Shown one piece after another: positions 32,452-50,017 of a stretch of 64,000 bases of DNA (position 1 is the stretch's first letter; each line of letters opens with the position of its first letter). The notes beneath the pieces are model-generated. The model did no database searches, had not been told where the DNA came from, and saw only the letters and a list, made by a program, of their open reading frames with translations. The position numbers and the translations under genes are program-made. This stretch comes from Lachnospiraceae bacterium. Its GTDB lineage: Bacteria; Bacillota; Clostridia; Lachnospirales; Lachnospiraceae. The stretch lies in contig JAFRXH010000023.1 of NCBI GenBank assembly GCA_017437785.1, forward strand, positions 1-64,000. The letters run 5' to 3'.

Positions 32452-32516
32452 TACTTACTCCTTTTTTATTGCTTTTTACTCTTTATAAGATCCTTCGCAC
32501 CGCTTTGGATGACTAT

Positions 32517-47502: not shown

Positions 47503-48312
47503 TTACTCTAACTTGCTGCCGCAATTTCCGCAAAATGCTCCCGACTGCCCTGTAGCACCGCATATGCTGCAGGTCTTGCCTTCGCTTTCTGCGGTCTTTT
47601 CAGGCTCTGATGCTGTTTCAGCTTCTTCCTTTTTTTCAACATCTTCTGCCTTATCAGTTTCAGATGCATTTTCAGCCTTATCTTCTTTCTTATCTTCAGG
47701 AGCTTCATCCTGCTTGATAGGAACTACGATCGGCTGCATAGGCGTATTCATGCCCTGGTTCATTGGCTGACCCATACCCTGGTTCATCGGCTGCCCCATC
47801 ATAGGCTGACCCATGCCCTGGTTCATCGGCTGACCCATCATAGGCTGGCCCATGCCCTGGTTCATCGGCTGACCCATCATAGGCTGGCCCATACCCTGGT
47901 TCATCGGCTGACCCATCATAGGCTGGCCCATGCCCTGATTCATTGGCTGACCCATCATAGGCTGGCCCATGCCCTGGTTCATTGGCTGCCCCATAGGCTG
48001 CTGATACATCCCCTGCTGCGCATAATTAGGCTGGCCGATAGCGGCAGTCTCTGCCTTCTTGGCAGCAAGATCACTCTTAAGCTTATTCAGCTCAGCCTCT
48101 TTGTTGATAAGAAGCTGGACAAGGTTTCTGCACGCATCATCAGGATCATTCTTATGAATGGAGTAATATGCCATTCCAAGCTGTGCATAGAGATTATTCA
48201 TCTCTTTTTCTTTAGAGCTGACCTGGGAATTAATGCTCATAGCATCAACATTTCCGGATACTTTAGCTCCAAGATTGTCTGCGGCATTTACAATACTGTC
48301 AAAGAACCCCAT
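47503..48312 (-). CDS. Zinc-ribbon protein with MGQPMNQG repeats
   Basis: The 269-aa protein has a helical N-terminal domain (about 1-95, [20 protein letters not shown], with coiled coil [18 protein letters not shown]), then six tandem 13-residue repeats of [13 protein letters not shown] (about 107-184). A Lys/Glu-rich helix follows and a C-terminal zinc ribbon with four cysteines ([18 protein letters not shown]). The N-terminal part resembles bacterial proteins with a similar helical start and terminal zinc ribbon; the role is unknown. AGGAGGAC precedes the ATG at 48312. It lies in the glycolytic gene cluster. Confidence 0.75.
47761..47994 (-). repeat. Six 39-bp coding tandem repeats
   Basis: Each 39-bp unit encodes [13 protein letters not shown]; copies differ only at a few third positions (for example GCCCTGGTTCAT against ACCCTGGTTCAT). 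The near-identity suggests recent expansion and probable copy-number variation. Confidence 0.95.
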
Positions 48313-48332
48313 AAGAAAAGTCCTCCTTTGGT

Positions 48333-48784
48333 AAATTCACGCTTCACTTCGTTCGCGTTCGCATTTTAGTCTTTCTAACGCTACCCGACATCGCTAAACT
48401 CATGCTGCGCTTCGCTTGCATTCGTTACCGATTAGGTAAGTTCGTACTAAATTCGGCTTTGCCTCATTAAGTACTCACTTAAGCTCCTCGGGTAAGTTCG
48501 CACTAAATTCGCGCTGCCCCTTCGGCTTGCGCTCATATTTTAGTCTTTCTAACGCTACCCGACATCGCTAAATTCGCACTGCGCCTTCGGCTTGTGCTCA
48601 TTAAGCTCCTCGGGTAAGTTCGCACTAAATTCGCACTGCGCCTTCGGCTTGCGTTCATATTTTAGTCTTTCTAACGCTACCCGACATCGCTAAACTCATG
48701 CTGCGCTTCGCTTGCATTCGTTAAGCTCCTCGGGTAAGTTCGAACTAAACTCAAGCTACGCTATCGCTTGCTTTCGTTAAGTTC
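48333..48784. repeat. Non-coding array of alternating hairpin elements between pgk and the zinc-ribbon gene
   Basis: This 450-bp stretch has no gene. It contains three related composite elements of about 90 bp (48365-48451, 48539-48629, 48661-48749), the last two spaced 122 bp apart. Each has an outer stem TTTAGT/ACTAAA, a middle stem TACCCGA/TCGGGTA and an apical hairpin. The same kind of hairpin also fills the space between elements. Apical stems differ but stay paired: GCAC/GTGC (48576-48579 with 48594-48597), ATGC/GCAT (48698-48701 with 48714-48717, and again at 48402-48421), AAGC/GCTT near 48753. The first element has a decayed middle stem (TTAGGTA). A lone right half lies at 48481-48507. 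Confidence 0.85.
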
Positions 48785-50017
48785 TCACTTATCATCAGCT
48801 GCAACTACGCCGGGAAGCTCTTTGCCCTCAAGGAACTCAAGGGAAGCGCCGCCGCCAGTAGAGATGTGGCTCATCTTATCAGCGAAACCAAGCTGGTTAA
48901 CTGCAGCTGCACTGTCACCGCCACCGATGATCGTGGTAGCTTCGGTCTCAGCCAGAGCCTTTGCAACAGCGATGGTACCCTTTGCAAGGGTAGGATTCTC
49001 AAATACGCCCATAGGTCCGTTCCATACAACGGTCTTCGCGCTCTTAACAGCCTCCGCGAACAGCTCCTGGGTCTTAGGTCCTATATCAAGGCCTTCCTTA
49101 TCTGCAGGGATCTTGTCAGCATCAACGAAGGAAACTTCGATGGGAGCATCGATAGGATCCGGGAAACCGTCAGCGATGGTGGTATCAACGGGCAGAAGAA
49201 GCTTCTTTCCAAGTGACTCTGCCTTAGCCATCATCTCCTTGCAGTAATCGATCTTCTCATCATCAACCAGTGACTTACCGATCTCATAGCCCTTAGCCTT
49301 AAGGAAGGTGAAAGCCATACCGCCGCCGATGATAAGTGTATCGCACTTCTCAAGCAGGTTATTGATAACGTTGAGCTTATCTGCTACCTTAGCACCGCCA
49401 AGGATTGCTACGAAAGGACGAACAGGATTCTCAACAGCGTTGCCCAGGAAATCGATCTCTTTCTTCATCAGGTAACCAACTGCACAGTTGCCGCCCTTAG
49501 CACGTACCTTCTCGGTAACAACTGCTACGGAAGCATGTGCACGGTGAGCAGAACCAAATGCGTCACATACATAATCATCGCACAGATCAGCCAGCTCGCT
49601 TGCGAACTTATCTCCTGCCTTTGCAGGCTTGGTCTCTTCCTCACCACGGAAACGGGTATTCTGAAGAAGGATAACATCACCCTCTGCCATAGCTGCTACT
49701 GCAGCAGTAGCATCAGAACCGGTTACGTTATAATCAGCGATAAACTTAACATCCTTACCAAGCTTCTCGGAAAGACGCTTTGCAACGGGTGCTAAAGACT
49801 CTTTCTCATTGGGGCCTTCCTTAACCTTACCAAGGTGTGAGCAAAGGATAACCTTGCCGCCGTCTGCAATAAGCTTCTTAATTGTAGGAAGTGCAGCTAC
49901 GATACGAGTCTCATCAGTGATCTCGCCGTTCTTTAAAGGAACATTAAAGTCACAACGTACCAGAACTCTTCTTCCCTTTGCGCTGAAATCATCAACGGAT
50001 TTCTTATTAAGTGCCAT
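48785..50017 (-). CDS. pgk: Phosphoglycerate kinase
   Basis: PGK (410 aa) makes ATP and 3-phosphoglycerate from 1,3-bisphosphoglycerate. Typical segments: [20 protein letters not shown] at the start, [12 protein letters not shown], the [17 protein letters not shown] nucleotide-site strand, [17 protein letters not shown] (as [13 protein letters not shown]) and the closing [25 protein letters not shown] precedes the start at 50017. It follows gapA with a GC-rich hairpin between the genes; the non-coding hairpin array begins directly after its stop codon. Confidence 0.98.

Follow-up and report, generated by a model that had tools for sequence, protein, structure and literature searches.

A mobile two-stem-loop repeat of Lachnospiraceae, tandemly multiplied behind pgk and possibly serving as a transcript-end clamp

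The window, the whole stretch of 64,000 nucleotides of Lachnospiraceae DNA that was analysed, contains an array of hairpin repeats between pgk and a gene for a protein with MGQPM repeats. The genes around the array, two of which look by eye like tpi and gap, are all co-directional, and in several relatives a tpi-like gene directly follows pgk in place of the MGQPM-repeat/CxxC gene at 47503-48312. On the minus strand, which is the sense strand of pgk, 48333-48791 was resolved into four tandem units, the later ones damaged. Unit coordinates were taken by eye from the sequence and are backed by matches of model R1, which was built from six copies of the same genome. The features are as follows.

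48785..50017, minus strand: pgk, the upstream gene, whose stop codon adjoins the array (C-terminal part among 77 proteins scanned, 10 of them matching PGK)
48679-48791, minus strand: unit 1, complete (R1 match 48676-48786, E 1.4e-25)
48735..48791, minus strand: hairpin A of unit 1, basal stem TAAGT/ACTTA extending into the last pgk codons and the stop codon TGA (48785-48787)
48679..48734, minus strand: hairpin B of unit 1, closing stem CCCGA/TCGGG (sequence, model match and covariation)
48557-48667, minus strand: unit 2 (R1 match 48554-48661, E 9.6e-20)
48615..48667, minus strand: hairpin A of unit 2, 5′ arm altered, with ACTAAAAT replacing GCACTTAAT
48557..48614, minus strand: hairpin B of unit 2 (sequence and model match)
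48479-48545, minus strand: unit 3, hairpin B cut (weak R1 match 48483-48539, E 0.19)
48493..48545, minus strand: hairpin A of unit 3, altered 5′ arm (sequence)
48479..48492, minus strand: remnant of unit 3, the 5′ arm of hairpin B merging into unit 4 (sequence)
48383-48482, minus strand: unit 4 (R1 match 48380-48476, E 3.7e-16)
48437..48482, minus strand: hairpin A of unit 4, shortened (sequence and model match)
48383..48436, minus strand: hairpin B of unit 4, 5′ outer arm changed (sequence and model match)
48333..48371, minus strand: partial tail hairpin directly ahead of the AAGGAGG of the next gene (by eye)
47503..48312, minus strand: downstream gene, MGQPM repeats and a C-terminal CxxC zinc-ribbon-like motif (motif by eye)

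The unit architecture was recognised by comparison with relatives: a full unit of about 115 nt consists of two stem-loops without a gap, hairpin A closed by TAAGT...ACTTA and then hairpin B closed by CCCGA...TCGGG, each on its own stem. The initial annotation had correctly placed hairpin repeats with stems in 48333-48784, and its middle stem TACCCGA/TCGGGTA corresponds to the outer part of hairpin B and its apical stems to the inner part. Its three nested composites of about 90 bp have to be replaced by the four units given above. The arms of its outer stem TTTAGT/ACTAAA come from neighbouring A hairpins, and the nesting arises from the tandem arrangement; where relatives carry a single copy, the partner of the TTTAGT arm is ACTTAA. 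Within the array, direct repeats 57-106 nt long are spaced 120-174 nt apart. On the minus strand the 452-nt array folded at -152.5 kcal/mol (z -6.4 vs shuffles), far better than shuffled sequence, and on the plus strand more weakly at -117.7 kcal/mol (z -3.3); the relevant strand of the pgk array is the minus strand, co-directional with pgk. An intrinsic terminator was ruled out, as proposed earlier, by the finding of 0 terminator-like sites (GC-rich stem plus T-run) within 48250-48900, and the CRISPR and coding readings were likewise ruled out from the sequence.

Single units were folded in the same way. The copy behind atpD folded into the two consecutive stem-loops A and B at -41.8 kcal/mol (z -6.5), and its opposite strand at -31.3 kcal/mol. 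Six further single units gave z-scores of -4.2 to -5.3 in four cases and weak values of -1.65 and -1.82 in two; for locus L152, the optimal fold differed from the consensus fold. Both hairpins follow the same module order, namely a U·U position, three pairs, GA facing GA, four pairs, RA facing GMA, a stem of 2-3 bp and a small loop.

The earlier proposal that paired changes keep the folded form held far above shuffle and slide controls once relatives were added, in an alignment of 118 copies (117 distinct) that was fitted to the structure model and whose loci were picked by model score. Among the 117 distinct copies, 33/33 pairs had changed on both sides, the covariation count was 1033 cells vs 305 in shuffles, 94.2% of cells were paired vs 70.1%, and the covariation score was 0.645 vs 0.203, falling to 0.088 or less when the alignment was slid by 1-3 columns; 0/500 shuffles reached any of five covariation measures. 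The 66 paired columns averaged 67.3% one letter, vs 96.4% in 18 chosen motif columns (U·U, GA/GA and RA/GMA). The folded shape is thus preserved while the letters change, and letters that are free where paired and fixed where mismatched look like a recognised fold. G·U occupied 73 cells and A·C 35 (454 and 410 expected under column independence), and this excess of G·U over A·C points to the sense strand, RNA and single-stranded DNA not being told apart by it.

G·U nevertheless made up just 2% of cells, which is low for an RNA maintained by point mutations, and part of the paired changes may come from hairpin copying or gene conversion. Taken further, paired changes could be made without any structural selection, by template-switching correction of quasi-palindromes in drifting repeats; the very small number of G·U intermediates and the partial copies in arrays would agree with this process, which should, however, remove the U·U, GA/GA and RA/GMA mismatches as well. 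As these columns are about 96% constant, simple palindrome correction is argued against and is regarded as highly improbable.

A search of the genome and of related Lachnospiraceae, suggested in the initial annotation, found further copies at each level. BLAST of the array against its own genome gave nine matches, and R1 found 11 places at E≤1. The pgk array accounts for four of these and atpD is followed by two; another lies behind an ORF in contig C65, and C56, C71, C79 and C81 contain the remaining four, which are near-identical. In C39, a yajC-like gene is followed by a truncated copy. Within the genus, 13/35 genomes had a match at E≤0.01, weak in two of them and in some cases in tandem, with at most 11 matches per genome among the 35. 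The element was present in at least 124/397 genomes of the family, in at least 56/392 of the order sample (model R2), all within the same family, and model matches occurred in at least 18/391 of the class sample; these counts are lower bounds, because about nine candidates per genome were scored in the family, order and class searches. Eight of the 18 class genomes lie outside Lachnospiraceae, with weaker matches (best E 1.8e-9), several of which share a GA-NNNN-RA core by eye; no homology is claimed for them. At L325, L333, L334 and L335, from other Clostridia families, a GA-NNNN-RA...GMA-NNNN-GA core was seen by eye, possibly a wider module.

An exact pattern matched 30 stretches in named genomes, including Blautia schinkii DSM 10518, Frisingicoccus caecimuris DSM 28559, Cuneatibacter caecimuris DSM 29486 and Butyrivibrio MAGs; judged by title, we take 20 of the 30 to be Lachnospiraceae. 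In Blautia schinkii the element (L312) is located behind an rpsN-like gene. By eye, the second arm is missing from the match in Elusimicrobia, which looks fortuitous. Carriage by phages or plasmids was not supported: phage and plasmid collections held no match for the atpD copy, and viral contigs no exact match to one degenerate pattern. In agreement with the earlier statement that the array belongs to no named family, neither the array nor seven element loci matched Rfam; Rfam 15 gave one tRNA only in the whole 64-kb window and, at the seven loci with E up to 10, only LSU rRNA and tRNA above the gathering score. No description of the two-hairpin element was found in the open literature, in which subscription journals are sparse, or in passages of PMC8040213 other than its 3161 candidates.

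Mobility is shown by empty pgk sites, nested insertions and dispersed near-identical copies. The pgk end was found in 24 genus genomes, and by eye the element pair was present in 7 and absent in 17, one of the latter (G018) having a single related hairpin in the pgk spacer; genome G023, 89% identical in the pgk stretch, has an empty site with just TAAGGAGGAAACAAAAATG. A dispersed 26-nt palindromic repeat, GTCATYCTGAGCGNAGCGAAGRATCT, occurred 51 times in G000, 11 times in G028 and 268 times in G032 (≤2 mismatches; 0 for the reversed-pattern control), the nearest in the window being at 32488-32513 on the minus strand with 3 mismatches; a literature search for its letters returned unrelated papers only. 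At L096 (G028) and L107 (G032), the element splits this repeat between GAGCG (GGGCG in L107) and an AGCGAA part. Four copies in G000 carry the left half of the 26-nt repeat at the left and GCGAA or GCAAA at the right, stay alike for about 60 nt beyond the right edge, up to GGGGATCTT, and then have unrelated flanks; with one copy in G028 they form the near-identical dispersed set. Judged by the edges of the nested copies, the mobile unit opens with the first base of stem A and closes with the final base of stem B; as far as these copies show, the mobile element consists of two stem-loops and nothing else.

Copies were also compared for likeness, using the loci of a set locus-to-genome list and leaving out near tandem pairs. 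Across genera, likeness was highest within the same genome (0.712, n=42), while copies sharing a site (0.632, n=232) were little more alike than those at different sites (0.602, n=2958); either sites were struck repeatedly or homogenisation takes place within genomes. Within the genus, it was copies at one site in different species that resembled each other most (0.748, n=21), ahead of copies of the same genome (0.709, n=69) and the others (0.702, n=566), as would fit copies inherited in place; there, inheritance outweighs movement.

These properties would also fit a selfish pair of DNA hairpins of the PATE or REPIN kind, whose ends are recognised as single-stranded DNA by an HUH (Y1) transposase acting in trans; placement at stop codons would then come from the choice of target or from tolerance, and the element would have no role as RNA. 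PATEs derived from IS200/IS605 have hairpins at both element ends and share these ends with a partner IS in the genome; at L096 and L107 the limits of the nested copies match the two stem-loops by eye. Terminal hairpins, nested insertions, dispersal and copies in coding or probably untranscribed places all speak for such a pair. The conserved mismatches are as in REPs, where, according to PMC3733652, cleavage by RAYT needed the AA/GC loop edge. Y1 transposases were found in 15/35 genus genomes, but neither R1 nor a hairpin pattern found the element at 10 Y1 loci of the genus; in the family, Y1_Tnp was no commoner in element genomes (73/124 vs 146/273 others, Fisher p 0.33) and was absent from 9/32 strong element genomes, picked by best E-value from the family search. 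Mobilisation by Y1/RAYT is thus supported neither by the loci of the genus nor by co-occurrence across the family, and a selfish pair does not predict sense orientation or stop-codon precision. This explanation is considered somewhat unlikely.

Placement was examined at fetched loci, mostly the best-scoring ones: removal of 5 duplicates from 138 aligned matches left 133, among which 112 were first copies with 200 nt or more of sequence to their left; a sense ORF was 60 aa or more, and stop positions are given relative to model position 1. The sense stop codon started 1-9 nt before the element in 76/112 first copies, mostly at -8 (26), -7 (23) and -1 (10), compared with 142/5600 random positions in the same loci (2.5%, sense stop at -9..-1) and 5/112 in the opposite-strand control from the right end of the element. 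No sense ORF stop lay between -40 and +10 in 26/112. The right side is loose, with a median of 88 nt to the next ORF in 71/76 and no ORF within 450 nt in 5, so that tight operon packing does not account for the left edge. Pairing at the foot of hairpin A tends to run through the stop codon: the left flank, including the stop codon, paired with the linker behind hairpin A over at least 4 bp in 71/116 (permuted flanks: mean 31.9, maximum 46 in 500). Examples are TAAGT/ACTTA, GGC/GCC behind TA, and GAC/GTC or GACC/GGTC behind T; with GGC behind TA and GAC(C) behind T, the first letters of the element remake TAG or TGA.

A scan of upstream proteins covered 77 ORFs, one more than the 76 of the placement test, whose search range was wider, and gave, among the families listed (25 of 43), S8 19 times, S14 12, PGK 10, S13 5, YajC 3 and the rest 1-2 each. 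Stable RNAs were met in the same position: a sense tRNA ended 2-7 nt before the element in 8/12 loci (ARAGORN), a 23S rRNA 4 nt before it at L156, and a tmRNA 5 nt before it at L276. One copy (L114) lies antisense at a tRNA 5′ end, and by eye the copies at L145, L318 and L328 lie behind terminator-like T-runs.

Copies at L118, L154, L184, L207 and L216 begin about 2 nt downstream of a TATAAT box; several of them repeat a similar box at the right end, as if the ends carried a duplicated promoter piece. In G084, five copies (L183, L262-L265) occupy one and the same position within paralogous genes that by eye resemble AAA-ATPase genes, and they seem to keep the reading frame.

A stop codon in or beside the basal stem in 76/112 copies might suggest a device of translation termination, in which the stop-codon-rooted hairpin delays the ribosome at termination and either reduces expression or couples it. 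PMC12306157 offers an E. coli precedent, reporting that REPs less than 16 nt from the stop codon stall ribosomes. Such a device is quite unlikely, since many hosts (S8, S14, PGK, S13) need high output and no ribosome is present at copies behind tRNA, 23S and tmRNA.

That the repeats form an apparently undescribed family of mobile structured elements in Lachnospiraceae, folded on the sense strand, is well supported. As to function, a transcript-end clamp best fits the sense bias, the constancy of the non-canonical positions and the anchoring at a stop codon or RNA 3′ end. Judging from sequence evidence, the element is probably an intercistronic RNA clamp, its effect and its mobilising enzyme being inferred; that the pgk array is a tandemly multiplied copy of this small element, acting as such a clamp after spread in trans, has about an even chance of being correct. 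An enzyme acting in trans and recognising the folded strand would spread the copies. Once transcribed in an operon, the element would serve as a compact clamp, located at the stop codon or the 3′ end of the RNA, and block 3′-to-5′ exonucleases, and a stable end of the upstream message (pgk, ribosomal-protein and atp mRNAs) would thereby be set. The regular U·U, GA/GA and RA/GMA positions would limit each helix to about 2-6 pairs, and such short helices would escape cleavage of the RNase III type and stay openable by the terminating ribosome. The earlier idea of an RNA that protects the end of the pgk mRNA would fit the placement at stop codons.

Some copies are hardly transcript ends (the coding copies of G084, the antisense copy of L114, and those at T-runs and TATAAT boxes), and these count against a clamp, as do the G·U content of only 2%, the weak z-scores of two of the seven single units and the within-genus pattern of inheritance. 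A wider reading, considered unlikely, is genome-wide RNA punctuation, in which a mobile cassette is delivered to RNA 3′ ends (stop codons, tRNA, rRNA and tmRNA), remakes the stop codon and is read by a dedicated protein recognising the fixed GA/GA and RA/GMA positions. Delivery in that case could be RNA-based, by reverse transcription or template switching, giving a bacterial counterpart of SINEs.

The best-known mobile hairpin repeats are those of Proteobacteria and streptococci. ERIC/IRU is similar in size to the two-hairpin element and, compared by description, forms one long hairpin instead of two. Both are folded repeats in transcribed spacers, and in Enterobacteria ERIC can alter mRNA fate (PMC3049150). 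The BOX elements of Streptococcus pneumoniae are likewise modular structured repeats with variable expansion, are co-transcribed and have been proposed to impede 3′-5′ exonucleases; as described in PMC3049150, however, BOX has a boxA/boxB/boxC build and is overrepresented between convergent genes, whereas the present element has two like hairpin domains and lies mostly at stop codons ahead of a co-directional gene. Rickettsia palindromic elements can sit inside genes that stay open, according to the same source, as the G084 copies seem to, but most copies of the present element lie outside genes, at gene 3′ ends.

The initial annotation had considered a BIME-like mobile repeat. The dispersed, non-autonomous-looking and mobile character was borne out, and strict REP/BIME membership was not, as the GTAG tag, the RAYT association and the high copy number are lacking. 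With REP/BIME/REPIN of Enterobacteria and Pseudomonas, the element shares the small, imperfect hairpins dispersed as pairs and arrays, some of which lie no more than 15 nt from a stop codon (PMC12306157), and an AA/GC-type mismatch close to the loop (PMC3733652). Unlike these, its hairpin foot has no constant GTAG (or CGTC), the flanks varying among TAAGTAGAG, TGACATTGAG, TAGGCATTGAG, TGACCGAAAG and others; no RAYT link was found; its copy number of at most 11 per genome, among the 35 genus genomes, compares with over 100 per genome for REP/BIME according to PMC2817692; and its unit, in Lachnospiraceae, is two same-strand hairpins, A then B, strongly sense-oriented.

A distinct mobile hairpin repeat is thus widespread in a major gut family, where it is placed at core-gene ends almost to the codon, shows strand bias and has the stop codon at or in its stem. 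This placement raises the question of which enzyme or selection puts the element there. Relatives with occupied and empty pgk sites provide a natural experiment on how a 3′-abutting structure relates to the expression of glycolytic, ribosomal and stable-RNA operons.
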